From the IMG/VR virus record IMGVR_UViG_3300047666_000621, positions 1 through 39,817 of that record: a DNA stretch of 39,817 bases; one strand, given 5' to 3'. The first letter of the stretch is position 1, and every line of letters begins with the position of its first letter. Source of the DNA: a virus. Below the pieces are notes generated by a model. That model had not been told where the DNA came from. It searched no databases and was given only the letters and a program-made list of their open reading frames with translations. The position numbers and the translations under genes are program-made. Of the stretch, positions 1 through 39,817 are shown in pieces.

Positions 1-1010
1 ATCGACGGAAACTGTCGCCAGTGCATCCCGGCAAACGTGTCAGATTTTGAGCTGTGGAAATGGCCGGTATAGAAATAGTGAAAGTCGCTCACTCCATACA
101 ATGCGCGGAAAGTGTGCTTGATATTCTCGGCCATCTTTTCAGGCTTAACCCCGTGCCCATGATGCGAACAAATAAACAGTCGCCCGCGCTGAAATATTCC
201 ATAGTGGCTTTCCTGGCCGTTAATCGTCACGCGCGGATTGTTGGCGTATCTCTGCCCTAGCGCAATCAGAACCGGCTGGGGAATGTTGGGGTCGTGGTTG
301 CCGGGGTTTGATTCGTAGATAACCTCGGCGTGAGTTGTCAGCGCCATTTCGATTTGCCAGATAGCGACCTCTATCCCAAGCAACAGATTTTCGCCGTGAC
401 TGCCCTCGACCTTCAGTTTGTGCAGGCTCCGCACTGTCACGTCGCGGTCGTCGTTAGCGTGGAGCCGGTCGCCGTTGTCCAGAATTAGGGCTGTGTCTGC
501 TGGGGATAAGCTGCCATGAAGCTCTCCGAAACCCTCTTTGACGCGCTTAACCGCTATCTCCCGGTTGTAAGCTCTGTGCCCTTTGCCCTCGGATATAACC
601 GCGCCAAGGTGAAAATCTGAGTTTGCGAATAGGTTAACGATATTTTCGCGGGGCCGGTTGCCAAGGATAATTTCGGGGATGGCCAGAACGCCGCCTAGTA
701 GCGTCACGATGCGCTCGGCCACAGCTTCAGGCGCGGCAGGTTCTGGCGCTAGTTGTAGCGAATAGGATATGTCGCCCGCTGGCGTGGTCTTGAGCCAAGC
801 CGTCTTTGGAACCATGCCCGTTCCTAGCGCCTTCATCGCCGCTTGAATGGCCGGATCTTGCCCCAGTATTTTTGACGCGCGTGTCACGCGAGAATTGAGC
901 GTTTCGCGGGCTAGACCTAGAGCCTTCGCAGCTTTGGTGACTGTGCCGTGCGCTTCAACAGCGTCTAGGGCTTCTTGGGCTAACTCAGGGGATAGGGGTG
1001 GCGTCGGCAT
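1..1010 (-). CDS. Metallophosphoesterase, left-edge copy (3' truncated by window)
   Basis: This is the first copy of the calcineurin-like phosphoesterase that is complete at 38355-39482. The gene starts at 1010 and runs off the left edge, so the last ~39 codons are missing. The reading frame is intact and keeps the metal-site motifs (DFH, GD, GNHD, HHGHG, GHFH) and the N-terminal helix-turn-helix-like segment. Most differences from the other copy are at third codon positions, so both copies appear to have been under protein-level selection. The upstream DUF6378-like gene overlaps its start by 26 bases. Substrate is unknown; phage members of this superfamily include nucleases and phosphodiesterases. 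Confidence 0.9.
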   Translation of the reverse strand, partial: MPTPPLSPELAQEALDAVEAHGTVTKAAKALGLARETLNSRVTRASKILGQDPAIQAAMKALGTGMVPKTAWLKTTPAGDISYSLQLAPEPAAPEAVAERIVTLLGGVLAIPEIILGNRPRENIVNLFANSDFHLGAVISEGKGHRAYNREIAVKRVKEGFGELHGSLSPADTALILDNGDRLHANDDRDVTVRSLHKLKVEGSHGENLLLGIEVAIWQIEMALTTHAEVIYESNPGNHDPNIPQPVLIALGQRYANNPRVTINGQESHYGIFQRGRLFICSHHGHGVKPEKMAENIKHTFRALYGVSDFHYFYTGHFHSSKSDTFAGMHWRQFPS

Positions 1011-1269
1011 TTGAGAGTTCTCCAGCAAGGGCCATATAGCCCGCACCATCGACATAGCTGTCATGGTGTGGTCCGTTCACTAATCGTGCAATTTTAAGCC
1101 ACGCCATGCAAAGCGCAACCTGCTCGGGGGAAACGTCCGCGCCGAGAATGACCTGCCAGCCTGTCGCTATGCGCTGGAAGTTTTCCGATGGGGGGCCATA
1201 TGACGCCGCGCGGGGGCCGCAAACTAAGTCCGTCGCCTCCGCTAAGATATGGGCGCGCTGCATCTGCAT
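985..1269 (-). CDS. DUF6378-like small protein
   Basis: The body (ILAEATDLV..., then SYGPPSENFQRIATGW, later a Met-Ala-Leu-rich C-terminus) matches my recollection of the phage DUF6378 domain, about 80-90 residues of unknown function. The chosen start is the ATG at 1269. An in-frame TTG at 1326 would add 19 residues, but those bases also encode the end of the preceding gene. No clear ribosome site is visible, so coupling to the upstream gene is likely. It occupies the slot where the right-end copy of this region carries an unrelated 49-codon gene, so it is a strain-variable cassette. Confidence 0.7.
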   Translation of the reverse strand: MQMQRAHILAEATDLVCGPRAASYGPPSENFQRIATGWQVILGADVSPEQVALCMAWLKIARLVNGPHHDSYVDGAGYMALAGELSNADATPIP

Positions 1270-1726: not shown

Positions 1727-1868
1727 GGTATTCCTCCATTCGTTTCGCGGTCTGTCTTGCCCGCTCAGAATTGCCGCCGCTGCGCCAAATTGTCAAGACT
1801 GCTATTAGGGCGAGGCCCATATAGGCAAAGCCGCGACCAATTCGGGAAGCTAGGAATGCGGCAATCAT
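1635..1868 (-). CDS. Inner-membrane spanin-like protein (Rz-like)
   Basis: A 77-residue protein with one N-terminal membrane helix (about residues 9-28) followed by a charged, Arg/Glu-rich helical segment likely to form a coiled coil. This is the usual plan of an inner-membrane spanin, though shorter than lambda Rz (~150 residues). The start at 1868 overlaps the endolysin stop in an ATGA, which favours it over a start six codons upstream. The o-spanin-like gene begins inside it. Confidence 0.6.
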   Translation of the reverse strand: MIAAFLASRIGRGFAYMGLALIAVLTIWRSGGNSERARQTAKRMEEYRETRKRADDADIGTGDPSADRDWLRDRGEQ

Positions 1869-2512
1869 CGGTCGCCCCTCGCCCATTTCTTGAGACGTTC
1901 ACGCATGACCCAAGCCAATCCCGCAATCGCTACAAACGCGCACGCGATAACGATAATCTGAGCCGTGCCGTCTAGCTGTGACACCGCAGTGCCCGCGCCT
2001 GTGATAACGGATATTGCCCCGGCAGCGCTCGCCTGCATCGTCGTTGATTGTGCTGGGGATGTGCGAGGTGTTGGCACCGTCCGCGCGAACCACGACCGCA
2101 CGTCGAAGCAAGGGCAAGCCTTGTTGGCATATTCGTGATGCCCGGATAATTTCAGGTTTGGCCCGTATTCGGTTTGCAGGCGCGCGACTAACTTGCGCAG
2201 CGCCGCGCCCTGCTCTTCGGTAAAGTTGTCCTCAAACGAGCCGTCTTTTGCGCCGCCACCACCGCCGAACAAGCTAATACCGATTGTGCCTGTGTTGTGG
2301 CCCTTGACGTGTGCGCCGGTGCGTTCGATCGGTCGCCCCTCCGCCTCAGTGCCGTCGCGGTCAATTAGAAAATGATAGCCATTGTCTGACCAGCCCCGCC
2401 CTTCAACATGCCACTCGCGCACTCTGGCAACCTTTTGCGCCGTGGTTTTGTCAGCCCACCAATCGGCGCGGGTCGCAGTGCAGTGAATAATGATTTCGCT
2501 AATAGGTCTCAT
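1865..2512 (-). CDS. Endolysin, T7-lysozyme-type N-acetylmuramoyl-L-alanine amidase with C-terminal membrane segment
   Basis: The first ~145 of 215 residues form an Amidase_2/PGRP domain that cleaves the bond between N-acetylmuramate and L-alanine. By alignment from memory with T7 lysozyme, the zinc ligands are His10, His125 and Cys133, with Tyr46 and Lys131 in catalytic positions; the GHHEYANKACPCFD block is diagnostic. A low-complexity linker follows, then a hydrophobic helix near residues 185-203 (IIVIACAFVAIAGLAWVM) and a basic tail. T7 lysozyme lacks this extension. The membrane segment could tether the enzyme or act as a holin-like element. Confidence 0.9.
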   Translation of the reverse strand: MRPISEIIIHCTATRADWWADKTTAQKVARVREWHVEGRGWSDNGYHFLIDRDGTEAEGRPIERTGAHVKGHNTGTIGISLFGGGGGAKDGSFEDNFTEEQGAALRKLVARLQTEYGPNLKLSGHHEYANKACPCFDVRSWFARTVPTPRTSPAQSTTMQASAAGAISVITGAGTAVSQLDGTAQIIVIACAFVAIAGLAWVMRERLKKWARGDR

Positions 2513-3203: not shown

Positions 3204-4160
3204 TTAGGAGATTGCGTTATCGAAGAGGCCGCCGTTTGCGGCTTCGTTCTTGCAAACTAGGGTAAGCTCCGTAACCACCTGGCGTTTGTCGTTGTCGCCC
3301 GTTTTGGCAAGCGCCTGATTCTTGGTAGCCCGCAGAACACCAGCGCACCACATATCAGACTGGTTGATGAAGATGTCCCGGCTGCGGTTCTCACGAGTAG
3401 GAACCCAAGTCACTGTGCCCCAAGGCGTAACGTAAACCGCCATTGCGTTGCGAACCTCGTCTTTGCTCGCTTCAATGTTGGCCCGCTGGTTGTTATTGCC
3501 AGTAAAGCCTAGCGCGATATTCATCTGGTAGGATGAAAGCATGACAGTGTCAGGCTTGCCGCCGGCAGACCAGATTGATTCCATAACCGTATCGAAGCGC
3601 GCCTGGCTGAAGTCAATCAGCGTGGTTGTTTCGTCGGTGCGCGCGTCGGTGCCGTCGCCTGTTGCCGAAGCACCCTCATTCGCCCCAAAAAGCACGTTAG
3701 TGGTCAGCCATGCAGGAGCGCCCGCAAGTTCACGCGCTGTAGTCGCATTGCCCGCAACTCGCGCGTTATTGGCAAACATAGCCTTTTCAATATCGAGCTT
3801 TTGTTCTTTTGCAATCTTGAGTATTTGGAATGCCATTTCCTTGGCGCGGCCAGCTTTATTCAGGCCGTCGTCAGTGCCGGGGATAACAACCGCATTCTTA
3901 AAGATTTGCGTGTAATTGCCCTGACGGGTGGTCGCTGTGCGCGCCTCGGCAGCTGTGTCGTCGCCTTCGATGTGGGCATTTGTAGCGGACGAGCGCAATG
4001 AGTCGGTCTGATGTTCATGGTACGTATTGGTCGCTTTGACCTTTGCCATGCCGCTATAGAACGGCGTTTCCTCTGGCGAGATGTCATAGATGGAATCCGA
4101 AAGATCCTCGCGGATGCCGTTGACGTCGTAGCTGTCGAATGTGTTGGCTGGTTGTGCCAT
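3204..4160 (-). CDS. Major capsid protein (SU10 / DUF5309 type)
   Basis: A 318-residue protein matching the SU10-type HK97-fold capsid family. The opening (NTFDSYDVNGIREDLSDSI, then ISPEETPFYSGM) and the core (HEHQTDSL, GNYTQIFKNAVVIPGT) are typical. It is preceded by the scaffold gene and the portal, the normal head-assembly order. No separate protease gene is evident, which agrees with scaffold-type assembly. It should be the most abundant virion protein. Confidence 0.93.
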   Translation of the reverse strand: MAQPANTFDSYDVNGIREDLSDSIYDISPEETPFYSGMAKVKATNTYHEHQTDSLRSSATNAHIEGDDTAAEARTATTRQGNYTQIFKNAVVIPGTDDGLNKAGRAKEMAFQILKIAKEQKLDIEKAMFANNARVAGNATTARELAGAPAWLTTNVLFGANEGASATGDGTDARTDETTTLIDFSQARFDTVMESIWSAGGKPDTVMLSSYQMNIALGFTGNNNQRANIEASKDEVRNAMAVYVTPWGTVTWVPTRENRSRDIFINQSDMWCAGVLRATKNQALAKTGDNDKRQVVTELTLVCKNEAANGGLFDNAIS

Positions 4161-4181
4161 TTTGGGTATTCCTATTCGGGT

Positions 4182-5162
4182 TTAATTGTCAGGCGCAAGC
4201 ATGGAAGCAACAAAGTCGTCTATGCTGCCAGTTTTCCGGGCTTTCGCCAATTGCTTGTCACGGGCAACGCTTTGAGGCTGTTTTCTTCGTCCAGTCGGCT
4301 TGATTGTTTTCTGGGGCTTTGGCGTAACTTTCGCCGCAGATTTGCCAGATTGCAATTCTCGCCATTTCATAGCGTCCATGAGAACGCTAACCGCTCGGGA
4401 GTCTGTGACTTCGCCCATTTCGCCTGGGGTGAAGTGGTAACTCTCGATGCCCGTTTTAAACAACTTGTCCCGCAACGGCGCAGCCGTCTCAGGGTTTGCA
4501 AATTCAGGTATTGCAGTTTTCAAGCGTTGGACTTGCTCTTGCAGGTAGACCTGTTTTGCCTGTTGTTGCATTGCAGACTGGCGCTGTGTGACGTCTTGGA
4601 TTTGAGACTGCTGGGCAGTGTACTCAACCATATCGGCGTCATATCGCGCGTTCTCCTGCATGTACCCAATAGGGTCGCTGTTGAGCAGGGCTGCACTAGG
4701 CTTCTGCGGCATCGTCTTCATGCCGTTTTGCTGTAGGCTCTGGACGGTTTCAACAAATTTGCGTTGTTCCGCTTGGAGGGACGAATACATCTGCTCAGTT
4801 TGCTTGCGCACGTCGGCGGATTCTTGCATCCCTTTTTGGATATACGCTTGCCCCGAATAGGAGCGGGTAAGGTCTTCAAGGGTAACTTGCTTGTCTGCGC
4901 CGTCTATTTTGACAGTGTAGAGCTTATTTGCAGGTGCCTTTTCGCCTTCGTCTTGTTCGGCTGCGTAATCCTCATCGTCTGAGGTTTCGCCCTCGTCTGG
5001 CGCTTCCTCGTCGGGGTTCTCGATTTGTTCCCCGTCTTCTAGTGCGTCGTCTTCCTCGATTTCTTCCGGCTCGGGCGCTTCTTGCGTTACCTCGTCGGCG
5101 TCGTCTTGGGATTCGGGCGCGAGCAGTCCTTGAACTGCTGTCTCTAGGTCAGTCGCTTGCAC
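4182..5162 (-). CDS. Scaffolding protein
   Basis: A 326-residue protein with a very acidic N-terminal third (runs of Glu/Asp around residues 20-75), a Gln-rich coiled-coil middle and a basic C-terminus (KPQKTIKPTGRRKQPQ). This is the standard profile of internal scaffolding proteins that drive capsid assembly and leave before packaging. It sits immediately upstream of the capsid gene. The call rests on composition and position, since scaffolds diverge too fast for motif matching. Confidence 0.85.
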   Translation of the reverse strand: MQATDLETAVQGLLAPESQDDADEVTQEAPEPEEIEEDDALEDGEQIENPDEEAPDEGETSDDEDYAAEQDEGEKAPANKLYTVKIDGADKQVTLEDLTRSYSGQAYIQKGMQESADVRKQTEQMYSSLQAEQRKFVETVQSLQQNGMKTMPQKPSAALLNSDPIGYMQENARYDADMVEYTAQQSQIQDVTQRQSAMQQQAKQVYLQEQVQRLKTAIPEFANPETAAPLRDKLFKTGIESYHFTPGEMGEVTDSRAVSVLMDAMKWRELQSGKSAAKVTPKPQKTIKPTGRRKQPQSVARDKQLAKARKTGSIDDFVASMLAPDN

Positions 5163-31182: not shown

Positions 31183-31356
31183 CTAGCCCTTCTTGCGTTT
31201 AGTTATAATCTCAGTCCAACCGCCTGTGTATGGCTTGGGTTTGGTAAGCGGGTCCGCCGTCCAGTTGCTAGAATGGCCGTCATTGTTTCCCACTAGGTCC
31301 ATAAGCGGCGTGTCGGTAGGGTTGAAAGCTACGATTTTGTCTTTGCGTTCGGTCAT
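31183..31356 (-). CDS. Small protein, cassette B
   Basis: A 57-codon gene beginning MTERKDKIVAFNPTD and ending KRKKG. Its start overlaps the methylase stop by an ATGA. The opening six residues equal those of the 32455 gene. The 19 bases at its 3' end (31181-31199) repeat the 3' end of the methylase gene (31359-31377). It thus looks like an inserted small gene. Function unknown. Confidence 0.6.
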   Translation of the reverse strand: MTERKDKIVAFNPTDTPLMDLVGNNDGHSSNWTADPLTKPKPYTGGWTEIITKRKKG

Positions 31357-32078
31357 AGGTCTAGCCCTTCTTGCGTTGGGGGTGGCGCTGGCTGCGCGAC
31401 AAACAAATCCGGCTCGTCGTATGCGGCCTGCACACGTTTGCACGCAATCTCGAAGTAATCGGGGTCTAGTTCAATGCCGATGCCCTTGCGGCCCAGCTTT
31501 TGGCAGGCAACCAGCGTTGTGCCGCTGCCCATAAATGGATCTAGGATTGTTTCGGCGTGGAGGCATTCCAAAACCCAATTCATCACTGCAACGGAAACTT
31601 GGCACGGGTGCTTAGTCTTTTCTGGTGACAAATTTTTAACCTGTGGAAACTCTCGCCAATTATAACCAGCAACCATATCATTTTTGACCTTTAATGATTC
31701 TGGGTTTCTGCATTTTTGTTTAGACCTAGCTGCATCAACATCGCACCCCCAAAAACCCCAAAGCCTTGTTTGCCTCGGCAGGTTGCTTCCATAAACCCAT
31801 GTCAGAACGGAATCAGGCGCGCCAAGAATGGGGCAAACCATTCGCATCATTTCCTCTGGATACTGCAATATCGCAGAAGGCGCGCCGTTTATCGCGCGCA
31901 TAAACATTTCAAAGGCTTCTGGCGTGTCGTTGTGCGTGTTATACTTAAACCCAATCCCATACGGCGGGTCTGTCACGACGGCATCCACCTTCCCAAGCGC
32001 GGGCATGACCTCTAGGCAATCCCCCAGATACAAATCGCAGTTGCCTATCTTAACATGGCGCGTCCATGGCTCAGTCAT
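31353..32078 (-). CDS. DNA N6-adenine or N4-cytosine methyltransferase (beta-class order)
   Basis: A 241-residue amino-methyltransferase. The catalytic motif DPPYG is at residues 37-41, and the AdoMet-binding DPFMGSGTT at 180-188; this order is the beta class. KTKHPCQ just before the second motif is typical. The start at 32078 overlaps the upstream stop by an ATGA. There is no cognate nuclease beside it, so it is an orphan, likely protecting phage DNA from host restriction or marking regulatory sites. Confidence 0.9.
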   Translation of the reverse strand: MTEPWTRHVKIGNCDLYLGDCLEVMPALGKVDAVVTDPPYGIGFKYNTHNDTPEAFEMFMRAINGAPSAILQYPEEMMRMVCPILGAPDSVLTWVYGSNLPRQTRLWGFWGCDVDAARSKQKCRNPESLKVKNDMVAGYNWREFPQVKNLSPEKTKHPCQVSVAVMNWVLECLHAETILDPFMGSGTTLVACQKLGRKGIGIELDPDYFEIACKRVQAAYDEPDLFVAQPAPPPTQEGLDL

Positions 32079-32455
32079 GATGCAGCCTCCGATATGAGCG
32101 CCTTGAGGATTGCGATTAGCCAAGCGCGGGCGGGGTTTTCTTCAAACCAACATTCGCCGTAAAGCTGCTGCGCTCCTGAAAGCCCGTTAGGCCACCAACA
32201 CACCGAAACCCTCCCAACCGTGGGGTCTGTCACTATCGAAAATTGGCTAATCCCCGGCAGCACCGCATCATGCAGCGCCTTGGCCGCGTCTAGTGAGCCT
32301 TTGTATGCGTGGCGGCAATATTCCTCTCGCATCTGCAAATTTATGTCCTGACAAGGTGTCGAGAAAACACTCCGGTTTGCCAAGCGAAAGCCACGATTGT
32401 CCCCCGCCTCAACCTTCGCCAGCAACTCAATTAGTGCGTCTTTACGTTCAGTCAT
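32075..32455 (-). CDS. Conserved phage protein (AAKALHDAVLPG)
   Basis: A 126-residue protein with AAKALHDAVLPGISQFSIV and the ending NPARAWLIAILKALIS. I recall both from small phage proteins beside methylases and replication genes, of unknown function. It overlaps both neighbours by ATGA. Its first codons (MTERKD) recur in the 57-codon gene downstream. Confidence 0.75.
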   Translation of the reverse strand: MTERKDALIELLAKVEAGDNRGFRLANRSVFSTPCQDINLQMREEYCRHAYKGSLDAAKALHDAVLPGISQFSIVTDPTVGRVSVCWWPNGLSGAQQLYGECWFEENPARAWLIAILKALISEAAS

Positions 32456-33027: not shown

Positions 33028-33645
33028 ATGACAGAGCAACCGACCCCGGGACCAGTAGACGAGGCAATCAAGGCGCTGGTGAAGGCGCAGCAAGAAATGG
33101 GCGCGGTCCTCAAGAACGCGAAGAACTCGCACCTCAAAAGCAAATATGCGGACCTTGGGTCAGTCATTGACGCGACGTTTCCAGCGCTCCACGCCAACGG
33201 GTTTGCGGTAATGCAGCCCGCCGGAATGGACAATATAGGACAATTTGTCGAAACGCATTTCTGCCATATCAGCGGCAAGACATTCAGCAGCCGCATCTAT
33301 CTTGTCATTGGCAAGAACGACATGCAGGGCGTTGGCTCGGCTCATACTTACGCGCGCCGCTATGGCTTGATGGCAATGGCCGGGGTTGCGCCGGAGGATG
33401 ACGACGGCGAGGCGACTAAGGCACCGAAGCGCCAAGACGCACTTCCGCCATTCGATAACGCTGCTTTCACTGAGCGCCTGCTTAGAAGCATTCTTAGCGC
33501 GAAAACCCTGCAAAATTTGAAGGACTATTTCGCCGAGGCGCACAAGGAAAAGCAACGCCTAACAAACGAGCAGTATCAAGCGCTGATGACAGCCAAGGAC
33601 GAGCGCAAAGCCGCCCTAGCGCCGCCAGTGGACGAGGGCGAATGA
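33028..33645 (+). CDS. erf: ERF-family single-strand annealing protein
   Basis: A 205-residue recombinase. The ERF core is seen at AIKALVKAQQEMGAVLKNAKN, YADLGSVIDATFPAL, the NGFAVMQPAGM strand and VGSAHTYARRYGLMAMAGVAPEDDDG, where Ala-Tyr-Arg-Arg-Tyr is diagnostic. The C-terminal ~50 residues are a helical tail (LKDYFAEAHKE). It anneals complementary strands for phage recombination and circularisation, as P22 Erf does. The ATG at 33028 has AGGGAA upstream. Confidence 0.92.
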   Translation: MTEQPTPGPVDEAIKALVKAQQEMGAVLKNAKNSHLKSKYADLGSVIDATFPALHANGFAVMQPAGMDNIGQFVETHFCHISGKTFSSRIYLVIGKNDMQGVGSAHTYARRYGLMAMAGVAPEDDDGEATKAPKRQDALPPFDNAAFTERLLRSILSAKTLQNLKDYFAEAHKEKQRLTNEQYQALMTAKDERKAALAPPVDEGE

Positions 33646-34079
33646 CAACCCGCACCATCCGCACCGAAAGTCAGCTCGCCGCGTGGTTTGAACACCTCAA
33701 GGTCAGGAAGTTACCTTTGACGGTAACAGCTATCAAAGGCGAGGCGCGGACCCAGCAACAGAACCGCACGCTGCATATGTGGTTCCGGGAGATATCGCAG
33801 GAGATTGGCGACGAGGCGTCAGAGGTTAAAGGCTTCTGCAAGGGGCGATTCGGCCTGCCCATCTTGCGGCGCGACAACCCCGAGTGGATAAAGAAGTACG
33901 CGCCGATGTATATCCCGCTTAGCCATGAATTGCGGCTTGGGTTTTTTGCTATTGTGCCCATGACGCGGGACTTTAAACTGCCTCAGATGATGGAGATAAT
34001 GGACGAGGTGCAGCGCTACTATCTACAGCAGGGCATTCGGCTGACCGACCCTGACCCAATGGCGAAGGCTAGAGCATAA
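33642..34079 (+). CDS. ninB: NinB-like recombination protein
   Basis: A 145-residue protein matching NinB (Orf of lambda family): TRTIRTESQLAAWFEHL, then ARTQQQNRTLHMWFREISQEIG, FCKGRFGLPILRRDNPEW and a MEIMDEVQRYYLQQGI C-terminus. Lambda Orf helps load RecA-like or annealing proteins by modulating SSB. Here it is coupled to ERF by an ATGA and shares an operon with SSB, which fits. Confidence 0.88.
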   Translation: MTTRTIRTESQLAAWFEHLKVRKLPLTVTAIKGEARTQQQNRTLHMWFREISQEIGDEASEVKGFCKGRFGLPILRRDNPEWIKKYAPMYIPLSHELRLGFFAIVPMTRDFKLPQMMEIMDEVQRYYLQQGIRLTDPDPMAKARA

Positions 34080-34426: not shown

Positions 34427-34667
34427 GCAGGCGCACGCCGCAACAGGCGCGGAAGTCCGGCAGTTTATTGAGCGCTACGAGCGCCTAGAGCAGGAAAAGA
34501 AGGACATTGCCGATGGGCAGAAGGAGGTCATGGCAGAGGCAAAGGGCCGGGGATATGACCCGAAGGCATTGCGCGCGCTGGTCAAGATCCGGGCAACCGA
34601 CCCGAGCGACCTGAGCGAACAAGAGGCAATCTTGGAACTATACAAATCAGCATTGGGAATGACATAA
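34413..34667 (+). CDS. GapR-like protein (DUF2312 / UPF0335)
   Basis: An 84-residue protein matching the DUF2312 family almost throughout: [47 protein letters not shown], then [15 protein letters not shown]. GapR in Caulobacter coats overtwisted DNA ahead of replication forks and stimulates topoisomerases. The family is characteristic of Alphaproteobacteria. A phage copy in a recombination operon may help phage DNA replication or compete with the host protein. An AGGAGATACCA leader precedes the start. Confidence 0.9.
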
Positions 34668-35119
34668 TGGCCGGATCAGTCAACAAAGTTATCATCATAG
34701 GCAACCTGGGTGCAGATCCCGAGGTGCGCAGCTTCCAGAACGGCGGCAAGGTCTGCAATCTGCGCCTTGCCACGTCTGAGACATGGAAGGACAAGCAAAG
34801 CGGCGAGCGCAAGGAGAAAACCGAATGGCACACGGTCGCCATTTTTCAAGAGGGGCTTGTCCGCATTGCCGAGCAATATCTTAAGAAAGGCTCCAAGGTC
34901 TACATCGAAGGCAAGTTGCAAACCCGTAAATGGCAGGACCAATCCGGCGCGGACAAATACAGCACCGAGATTGTGCTTCAGGGATTTGACGGCGTGCTGA
35001 CGATGCTGGATAGCCCTAACGGTGGGCAGCAGGGCGATTCCGGCGGGGATAATGGCCACAGCAATGCGCAAAGCCCTCAGCCGCGCCAAGACCTAGACGA
35101 GGATTCGATTCCCTTCTAG
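34667..35119 (+). CDS. ssb: Single-stranded DNA-binding protein
   Basis: A 150-residue bacterial-type SSB. The OB fold runs from [19 protein letters not shown] through [21 protein letters not shown] and [17 protein letters not shown], to about residue 112. A disordered Gly/Gln/Ser linker and the acidic tip DEDSIPF follow, which recruits repair proteins. It ends the recombination operon, just before a strong hairpin. Confidence 0.95.
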
Positions 35120-36343: not shown

Positions 36344-36880
36344 ATGGAATTTGACATTACCAGCCGATGGACGGGCAAAGCAAAGTTTACCGCCGAGATT
36401 GACTGCGCAGACGACGCGCCCCGCTCGACTAAGATTGGTCTGGCGGTCAAGTGGGCCAAGAAGTGGGGCGTCGACCTGAGCGGTGCCGACCTGCGCGGTG
36501 CCAACCTGCGCGATGCCAACCTGAGCTGTGCCAACCTGAGCGGTGCCAACCTGCGCGGTGCCGACCTGAGCGGTGCCAACCTGCGCGGTGCCGACCTGAG
36601 CGGTGCCAACCTGCGCGGTGCCGACCTTCTTTGCCTTGGCAACATGGCCGAAATTCGCACTATGCAGATTGAAAAGTGGATGGTTGGATACACCGCCACA
36701 GAATTGCAAATTGGGTGCCAGCGCCACGCAATCGAGAAGTGGGCCAAGTGGGACACCGATGCTGGCCGTAAGTGGGTATCTTCTATGGATACCGCAGCCC
36801 CAGAATGGGCGAATCGCAACCTAGCGCTAGTCTTGGCATTGATTGAGGCAAACCCAGCAATCAAAGGGGGCGAAGCATGA
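36344..36880 (+). CDS. Pentapeptide-repeat protein
   Basis: A 178-residue protein. Residues ~44-93 hold ten A(D/N)LxG pentapeptides ([13 protein letters not shown]...), enough for about two and a half coils of a right-handed quadrilateral beta-helix. A ~85-residue C-terminal domain follows ([19 protein letters not shown]), a phrase I recall from other phage pentapeptide proteins. Some members mimic DNA and inhibit gyrase (MfpA, Qnr); this one is short for that. A GAAGGAACCGAGAGA leader precedes the ATG. Confidence 0.85.
36473..36622 (+). repeat. Ten 15-base tandem repeats in the pentapeptide gene
   Basis: Ten units of the form RACCTGNGCGGTGCC run without interruption. The last four units are two identical 30-base copies (36563-36592 and 36593-36622), with one change in the 30 bases before. 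Such base-level uniformity points to recent expansion by slippage or recombination. Confidence 0.9.
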
Positions 36881-38051: not shown

Positions 38052-38380
38052 GCAAGCGAACCGTTTTAGTTTATCACGACTGCGCCAATTCATCGCAAGA
38101 GCGCATCCCGCGGCCCGTTTCGCTAGTGTGCGAGCCTTGGGAAACGCCAGATGCGGAAGCCCCACAGACGCTACAGGAGCGCGTGCTAGGGGGGCTCAAC
38201 AGCGTGCCCCGCACAGCTAGGACCATCGCGGGAAATGTGGGCTTAGACGTGCGCTCAGCGCGCAACGTGCTAGTAGAACTGTGCCGCAAGGGCGAGTGCG
38301 TCATGAGCCCGCCAAGAAGCAACCTAGCGAATCTTTATCGCCGCGCGGGAAGCCTCACAGCAACAGCTCCACCTCTTTAA
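38048..38380 (+). CDS. Winged-helix-like protein
   Basis: A 110-residue protein. Residues ~43-85 (ERVLGGLNSVPRTARTIAGNVGLDVRSARNVLVELCRKGECV) read as a winged helix with recognition helix at VRSARNVLVELCRKG. The N-terminal ~35 residues are an independent polar segment. It ends 26 bases inside the convergent metallophosphoesterase gene. A DNA-binding accessory protein. Confidence 0.65.
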   Translation: MSKRTVLVYHDCANSSQERIPRPVSLVCEPWETPDAEAPQTLQERVLGGLNSVPRTARTIAGNVGLDVRSARNVLVELCRKGECVMSPPRSNLANLYRRAGSLTATAPPL

Positions 38381-39482
38381 ACCGCCCGCGCTTGGCCGTA
38401 TCAAACGAGGCTCCGTATATCCCGCTAGTGTCCACAAAGCTCATAATCTCTTCGTATTGAGTCGTGGACACTATCGACGGAAACTGTCGCCAGTGCATCC
38501 CGGCAAACGTGTCAGATTTTGAGCTGTGGAAATGGCCGGTATAGAAATAGTGAAAGTCGCTCACTCCATACAATGCGCGGAAAGTGTGCTTGATATTCTG
38601 AGCCATCTTTTCAGGTTTAACCCCGTGCCCGTGGTGCGAACAAATAAACAGCCGCCCGCGCTGAAAAATGCCGTAATGGCTTTCTTGCCCGTTAATCGTC
38701 ACGCGCGGATTGTTGGCGTATCTCTGCCCTAGCGCAATCAGAACAGGCTGGGGAATGTTGGGGTCGTGGTTGCCGGGGTTTGATTCATAGATGACCTCGG
38801 CGTGAGTTGTCAGCGCCATTTCGATTTGCCAGATTGCGACCTCTATCCCAAGCAACAGGTTTTCGCCGTGAGACCCCTCAACCTTGAGCTTGTGCAGGCT
38901 CCGCACTGTCACGTCGCGGTCGTCGTTAGCGTGGAGCCGGTCGCCGTTGTCCAGAATTAGGGCTGTGTCTGCCGGAGATAAGCTGCCATGAAGCTCGCCG
39001 AAACCCTCTTTGACGCGCTTAACCGCTATCTCTCGGTTGTAGGCTCTGTGTCCCTTGCCCTCAGATATGACTGCGCCAAGGTGAAAATCTGAGTTTGCGA
39101 ATAGGTTAACGATATTTTCGCGGGGCCGGTTGCCAAGGATGATTTCGGGGATAGCCAAGACGCCGCCAAGCAAAGCTACAATGCGCTCGGCCACAGCTTC
39201 AGGCGCTGCGGGTTCGGGGGCTAGTTGTAGCGAATAGGATATGTCGCCCGCTGGGGTGGTCTTGAGCCAAGCCGTCTTTGGAACCATGCCCGTTCCCAAG
39301 GCTTTCATCGCCGCTTGAATGGCTGGATCTTGCCCCAGTATTTTCGACGCGCGGGTCACGCGGGAATTGAGCGTTTCGCGGGCTAGACCTAACGCCTTCG
39401 CGGCCTTGGTAACTGTGCCGTACGTTTCTACGGCGTCTAGGGCTTCTTGAGCTAGTTCAGGGGATAGGGGTGGCGTCGGCAT
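38355..39482 (-). CDS. Metallophosphoesterase with N-terminal HTH-like segment
   Basis: A 375-residue protein (start at the ATG shared by both copies; a GTG at 39512 adds ten residues). Residues ~15-45 look like a helix-turn-helix (TVTKAAKALGLARETLNSRV). The phosphoesterase domain has DFH (132-134), GD (180-181), GNHD (237-240), HHGHG (283-287) and GHFH (316-319), the five metal-site motifs of calcineurin-like enzymes. The HTH suggests it acts on DNA, as SbcD/Mre11-type nucleases do; that is inference. Confidence 0.88.
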   Translation of the reverse strand: MPTPPLSPELAQEALDAVETYGTVTKAAKALGLARETLNSRVTRASKILGQDPAIQAAMKALGTGMVPKTAWLKTTPAGDISYSLQLAPEPAAPEAVAERIVALLGGVLAIPEIILGNRPRENIVNLFANSDFHLGAVISEGKGHRAYNREIAVKRVKEGFGELHGSLSPADTALILDNGDRLHANDDRDVTVRSLHKLKVEGSHGENLLLGIEVAIWQIEMALTTHAEVIYESNPGNHDPNIPQPVLIALGQRYANNPRVTINGQESHYGIFQRGRLFICSHHGHGVKPEKMAQNIKHTFRALYGVSDFHYFYTGHFHSSKSDTFAGMHWRQFPSIVSTTQYEEIMSFVDTSGIYGASFDTAKRGRFKEVELLL

Positions 39483-39508
39483 TGTGAAAAACCTTTGCGT
39501 GTCGCCGG

Positions 39509-39658
39509 TCACTCATTCTTGAGCGCCTTGGCAGCTTCTAGGATAACCTGCGGCAGGCGGCGCGCTGACACGCGGCAAACCTCGACACCATCTACCCACG
39601 TCACAAGGTCAGACCCGTGCGCCGTGTGGTAGACAGCGGGCGCGCGCTGCATCTGCAT
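39509..39658 (-). CDS. Small protein replacing the DUF6378 gene in this copy
   Basis: A 49-residue frame: MQMQRAPAVYHTAHGSDLV, then TWVDGVEVCRVSARRLPQV and a short helix. Its first six residues equal those of the DUF6378-like gene in the left copy, after which the two are unrelated. A TTG at 39715 would extend it into the upstream gene. Its stop is adjacent to the possible GTG start of the metallophosphoesterase. Unknown function. Confidence 0.55.
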   Translation of the reverse strand: MQMQRAPAVYHTAHGSDLVTWVDGVEVCRVSARRLPQVILEAAKALKNE

Positions 39659-39678
39659 TGGGGGGGATTGGGTTGCGC

Positions 39679-39817
39679 TCAAGTCAGCTCGCCTAGCGGC
39701 ACGACTTCGCGGCAAATCGTGCGCGTCCTAGCAACAGGCACGCCCTCATCTAGGAGCGCGTCAAGCGCCTCCTGCGCGCGAGGCTGCAACTGAGCTTCGC
39801 ACGCGGCGAGGGTGTCA
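39679..39817 (-). CDS. Right-edge partial copy of the small exported protein
   Basis: The last ~45 codons of a homologue of the gene at 1290-1505, cut by the window edge. It ends VPLGELT as in the other copy. Differences include several amino-acid changes, so this part has diverged more than the metallophosphoesterase. Confidence 0.7.
   Translation of the reverse strand, partial: DTLAACEAQLQPRAQEALDALLDEGVPVARTRTICREVVPLGELT

Follow-up and report, generated by a model that had tools for sequence, protein, structure and literature searches.

Exchange of unrelated genes at a probable accessory slot beside a metallophosphoesterase gene in a mosaic phage

Phage contigs assembled from mixed populations may carry, within a single sequence, traces of more than one strain. 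The window analysed here, comprising the whole 39,817 nt of IMG/VR record IMGVR_UViG_3300047666_000621, raises this question directly: self-comparison reveals that its two ends hold homologous copies of one region, and in each copy a different small gene separates a metallophosphoesterase (MPE) gene from a small exported-looking gene. The position that it occupies is referred to as the slot, and the left-end copy (from position 1) and the right-end copy as version L and version R, respectively. The sequence-only reading had proposed a gene swap between strains at this fixed slot, clean at the gene borders. On the minus strand, the genes follow the order holin-like gene, Amidase_2 endolysin, weakly matching spanin pair, small gene, slot gene and MPE. 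The endolysin (1865-2512, minus strand) is well defined (Pfam E 2.4e-18; phrog_822 E 1.1e-51), the candidate inner spanin (1635-1886, minus) weakly matches the Rz-like spanin family phrog_1026 (E 0.019), and the candidate outer spanin (1502-1726, minus) is lipoprotein-like, with a weak LPAM_1 match below the cut-off (E 0.11). The small gene upstream of the slot has a GTG start and, by eye, an apparent signal sequence in version L (1290-1505, minus), is recognized by homology in version R (39679-39817, minus), where the contig end cuts it, and has no Pfam or PHROG match.

The two slot genes are unrelated, as had been claimed. Version L carries a DUF6378 gene encoding 94 aa (985-1269, minus), assigned to Pfam PF19905 with 102.4 bits against a curated cut-off of 27.1 (E 1.7e-29), while version R carries a 49-codon gene (39509-39658, minus) that has no Pfam match. 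Both open with the codons for MQMQRA, and both are followed by the MPE gene with the same start codon. The MPE is cut at its 3′ end by the contig end in version L (1-1010, minus) and is complete in version R (38355-39482, minus; 375 aa). The MPE copies (1-1011 and 38473-39483) are identical at 942 of 1011 positions (93%, 69 mismatches), and the flank upstream of the slot (1253-1418 and 39642-39807) at 145 of 166 (87%). Between these homologous flanks lie non-homologous blocks of 241 nt in version L (1012-1252) and 158 nt in version R (39484-39641). Downstream, homology starts one base ahead of the MPE ATG; upstream, the junction falls within the slot gene, after the six shared codons. The DUF6378 stop codon lies inside the MPE gene, with an overlap of 26 nt (985-1010), whereas the 49-codon gene ends 26 nt short of it. 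The MPE start codon is thus the only border common to both versions, so that the description of the exchange as clean holds at this codon and fails at the upstream junction and at the DUF6378 end.

Each block appears, by eye, to bring its own Shine-Dalgarno-like sequence for the MPE. In version L, the DUF6378 Gly-Glu codons supply GGAGAA seven bases before the MPE start, and in version R the block contains AAAGG nine bases before it; the MPE could therefore stay expressed with either block. The strains would then differ by an exchanged block extending from the small gene that closes the lysis module to the MPE start codon. Such an exchange would be ordinary homologous or illegitimate phage recombination, after which selection would keep those joints that leave the MPE intact. 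Genes for a NinB/Orf-like recombination mediator (33642-34079), a single-stranded DNA-binding protein (SSB; 34667-35119) and a DNA methyltransferase (31353-32123) are also present in the window, and with these the phage may itself stimulate recombination of its genome. Elsewhere, at 36344-36880 on the plus strand, 15-nt DNA repeats encode a pentapeptide-repeat-like pattern with PHROG matches of unknown function.

How the two copies came to lie on one contig is indicated by its extremities. Positions 1-127 are exactly identical to 38473-38599, and mismatches between the MPE copies begin directly after this stretch; if the 69 mismatches fell at random over the 1011 positions, 127 nt free of them would have a probability of 3e-5. 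We read the identity as an assembly k-mer fork. PMC10914622 describes contig ends from metaSPAdes, which may not be the assembler used for the window, as sharing the maximal k, and k lists reaching 127 as being in use. A related record, IMGVR_UViG_3300046534_000753 (G001), runs collinear with a large part of the window, has a single MPE and a single DUF6378 gene, and its own two ends are exactly identical over 127 nt; with about 42.7 kb, it is thus probably circular and complete. IMG/VR classes the ends of the window record as linear, without end repeats, which is expected since they are 93% rather than 100% alike. The MPE copies differ in 61 synonymous and only 4 non-synonymous codons. Together, the 127-nt fork, the circular relative and the synonymous-rich differences indicate that the contig most likely goes once round a circle and finishes on the version of the other strain. 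The window is thus very probably one circular phage genome of about 38.47 kb from a mixed population, its overlapping ends representing two strains that differ by exchange of the slot block, and reading the two copies as two haplotypes of one circle is strongly indicated.

Other origins for the two copies fit the same observations less well. A true duplication of the MPE region inside one genome would account for both copies being on one contig, but their placement at the two contig ends with an exact repeat of k-mer length and the single copy in the circular relative make it highly improbable. It is also very unlikely that the contig is a chimera in which one of the two slot versions is artefactual: the versions do sit where the assembler encountered a fork, at the ends of the contig, but the reading frames are open in both, the differences are synonymous-rich, and relatives of the 49-codon gene adjoin the MPE in other phages. 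The open frames and the synonymous-rich MPE differences likewise argue against the assembly error at 39483-39644 that the sequence-only reading had named as a possible refutation. What counts against a swap between two strains is that the version R arrangement was seen once only: an exact 24-mer representing it had no match in other viral contigs, and tblastn confirmed none of 25 candidate stretches in viral contigs. Separately, 43 candidate stretches emerged when genome contigs were searched for bacterial or prophage relatives, and none of them was confirmed.

The left arrangement does recur. In the closest relatives, L004 and L005, the latter being the locus of G001, DUF6378 occupies the slot with the same MPE overlap; these two are identical across 8338 nt and are therefore counted as one phage. 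They lack MQMQRA, which leaves the start codon of the slot gene uncertain. By comparison with this single outgroup phage, DUF6378 may be the older state of the slot in the window's lineage. The exact arrangement with the 49-codon gene was not found among relatives, although a remote relative of that gene occupies the slot in L076. On balance, the gene swap is confirmed, and the two parties to it were most likely strains of the same mosaic phage; the homologous flanks around unrelated blocks, the synonymous-rich differences, the 127-nt ends and G001 all bear it out.

Measured on version R, the MPE matches PHROG 704, labelled 'DNA repair exonuclease', over residues 21-345 (E 7.7e-44); among the Pfam metallophosphatase families, none matches it at E<=10. 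Residues D132, H134, D181, N238, H239 and H284, which we take to be the metal-site residues, are invariant in all seven aligned sequences, and the N terminus has helix-turn-helix (HTH) Pfam matches below their cut-offs. Because the presumed metal-site residues are kept and the N terminus is HTH-like, if sub-threshold, a DNA-acting nuclease is plausible. Neither slot gene, nor the MPE, nor the small upstream gene has an NCBIfam match at E<=1, and the two slot genes match no PADLOC family at E<=0.1, the PADLOC models describing defence rather than anti-defence systems. For the anti-defence or exclusion effects that the sequence-only reading had raised for these genes, no support emerged.

To define what precedes the MPE in other phages, an MPE profile search was performed, from which 80 of 364 relatives were kept and grouped into 24 clusters at 70% identity. 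The genes directly upstream in the cluster representatives were sorted by hand from an open reading frame (ORF) heuristic, without a gene finder, leaving L075, L081 and L084 unsorted. Many unrelated genes occur there, in line with the variety expected from the swap proposal: DUF6378, the predicted beta-beta-beta-alpha type of the 49-aa protein (L076), exported-looking small proteins, spanin-like, holin-like and lysin genes, genes without an assignment, and exported-looking trypsin-like proteases, for which Pfam Trypsin_2 was examined in L071 and L083.

Two further lineages change at the same point. L069 and L066 are 95% identical from the base before the MPE onward, and upstream one has a 108-aa exported-looking gene, whereas the other has a different spanin-like gene and lacks the 108-aa gene; among the 11 loci of this lineage the first state occurs in 6 and the second in 4, with L067, whose sequence ends 49 nt before the MPE, grouped with the first by its last bases. 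L154 and L155, both from metagenome 3300020045, share an upstream stretch of 620 nt at 89.7% identity, and their homology resumes exactly at the MPE start codon, at 87.8% over 164 nt only. Between these stretches L154 has 721 nt with a DNA methylase gene (3615-4335) and L155 has 20 nt without that gene (3606-3625). Counting the window, three lineages therefore have differences that stop at the start codon of the MPE. Other pairs behave differently: in cluster pairs of L068, L080, L083, L091, L095 and L133 homology starts 135-408 nt inside the MPE, and in many others it runs unbroken through the start codon. L092 breaks at -2/-3 against its own cluster, but upstream homology to L099 and L103 is regained at -17, which reduces this break to an indel of about 80 nt. 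A recombination site specific to the MPE start was considered and rejected, since most of the pairs listed break elsewhere or not at all.

The coincidence at the start codon in three lineages is also what speaks for a dedicated cassette system, integron-like or site-specific, inserting the slot genes. Recurrence at gene borders is weak evidence of anything special, however, because viable joints are expected there in any phage. No direct or inverted repeat of at least 10 nt (seed 7) occurs within 960-1320 or 39440-39710, the slot contents vary in length and gene number, and the adjoining spanin-like gene can change along with the slot (L069/L066); a cassette system is accordingly an extremely remote prospect. 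Phage genomes are mosaic, with accessory, moron-like genes at module borders, and the slot resembles this general pattern in that conserved genes enclose small, mutually unrelated genes that substitute for one another, and the joints fall on gene borders or close to them. It departs from it in that the differences in three lineages stop at one and the same start codon, that of the MPE, and in that the swapped genes recur near the MPE in other phages. The slot is best read as a product of ordinary phage mosaicism, a recurrent site for accessory genes with no dedicated cassette system behind it. Among the titles and abstract openings covered on cassettes, lysis, mosaicism and metallophosphoesterases, none concerned this slot, and searches on hypervariable, anti-defense, hotspot or lysis cassettes and on recombination breakpoints at gene boundaries also returned nothing on it.

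Of 50,697 phage records, 1446 contain a match to DUF6378, and all 31 aligned members match the family. The AlphaFold2 (AF2) model of the version L protein is all-alpha (mean pLDDT 88.6). MazG-type all-alpha NTP pyrophosphohydrolases are marked by conserved ExxE ... ExxD acidic motifs; such an assignment was not borne out by motif, as no ExxE pair is conserved in the 31 members, in which the acidic residues D70 and D74 are invariant and E84 is present in 29. Comparison with the MazG-like protein of cyanophage S-2L (7ody) gives Z 3.9 and an rmsd of 3.5 over 63 residues, among unrelated entries of like Z. Structure search of the PDB gives no match at E<=0.001 and, on a second look, Z 4.6 at best, and a profile search of PDB sequences gives short partial matches only (best E 0.13). 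Two DUF6378-matching PHROG families are labelled phosphofructokinase. The kinase fold of that enzyme includes beta strands; the label is implausible for a 94-aa protein whose model is all-alpha, without strands. In two other phages the gene is placed beside a thymidylate synthase gene or among replication genes, and the passages found by domain name state no function.

The 49-aa protein of version R is modelled as three strands and a helix (beta-beta-beta-alpha; mean pLDDT 91.2, pTM 0.58) from seven sequences, some weakly related. Its best PHROG match has E 0.3, the model finds nothing at E<=0.001 in the PDB or BFVD, and the family profile gives short partial matches to PDB sequences, the best (E 0.0057) being an unrelated design. 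Its CRP-406 relative has E 0.0008 against 8656 ORFs and, when all phage records are searched, E 0.5. At E<0.01 the profile recruits genes beside the MPE: that of L076 occupies the slot itself, that of L007 overlaps the 3′ end of the MPE gene, and those of L114 and L087 precede the MPE by 390-500 nt; L154 and L155, found with the L114 protein, also have the MPE downstream.

These placements raise the possibility that the swap is not random cargo, with DUF6378 and the small beta-beta-beta-alpha protein serving the MPE as alternative accessory partners. DUF6378 lies within 2 kb of the MPE in 7 of 24 MPE clusters: upstream on the same strand in one (the window's own lineage), downstream on the same strand in three and downstream on the opposite strand in four, one cluster being counted twice. 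Among the seven families present in at least five clusters, it is the only one with more than one geometry; one family of four clusters also has two. At E<=1, all three matches of the 49-aa protein and all four of its CRP-406 relative lie near the MPE, against a background of 425 of 4077 ORFs, a contrast that is overstated because most background ORFs are spurious frames. Among 21 control proteins at E<=1, one (a spanin-region gene) has two of three matches near the MPE, one has one of one, and the rest have none. For the 49-aa protein and its CRP-406 relative the proportions fall to 5 of 18 and 5 of 7 at E<=10. The 49-aa family also rests on weak scores, with L071 and L090 at E 0.07-5 in profile rounds and L026, the candidate for both slot genes, at E 0.051 in one round and later lost. 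From the DUF6378 side the MPE is within reach at only 8 of 42 loci, some of them short, and in the large L104 cluster the two are 1.2-1.4 kb apart. These data suggest that both slot genes are recurrent MPE neighbours; exchange of partners is nonetheless an unlikely, if serious, alternative to ordinary mosaicism at an accessory slot.

The nearest named phage found, Octadecabacter Antarctic DB virus 2 (OANV2, MW805364.1), is described in PMC9239159 as a podovirus. Its major capsid protein is 87% identical to that of the window, and longer aligned stretches of the structural region reach 69-81% at the DNA level. As in the window, a DUF6378 gene (gp37) lies upstream of an MPE homologue (gp36), on the same strand and 138 nt away, which favours partnership; unlike in the window, the pair faces the lysis genes, and the MPE is about 25% identical. 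In Sulfitobacter phages pCB2047-A and pCB2047-C, an MPE homologue with 27% identity over 96% lies downstream of the lysis genes, as in the window, but in pCB2047-C the gene directly before the MPE is annotated as 'protease' and has an apparent signal sequence, and no DUF6378 occurs in the 11-kb stretch examined.

That the slot swaps alternative partners of a DNA-acting MPE, with each partner fitting the enzyme to a host factor or target of its own, is a quite doubtful proposition; if true, the strains would differ in MPE partner while the enzyme is unchanged. The swap provides a natural strain pair for asking what use DUF6378 is to the phage and ties this domain by position to a metallophosphoesterase, and it illustrates that mixed-strain circular contigs can expose gene swaps.
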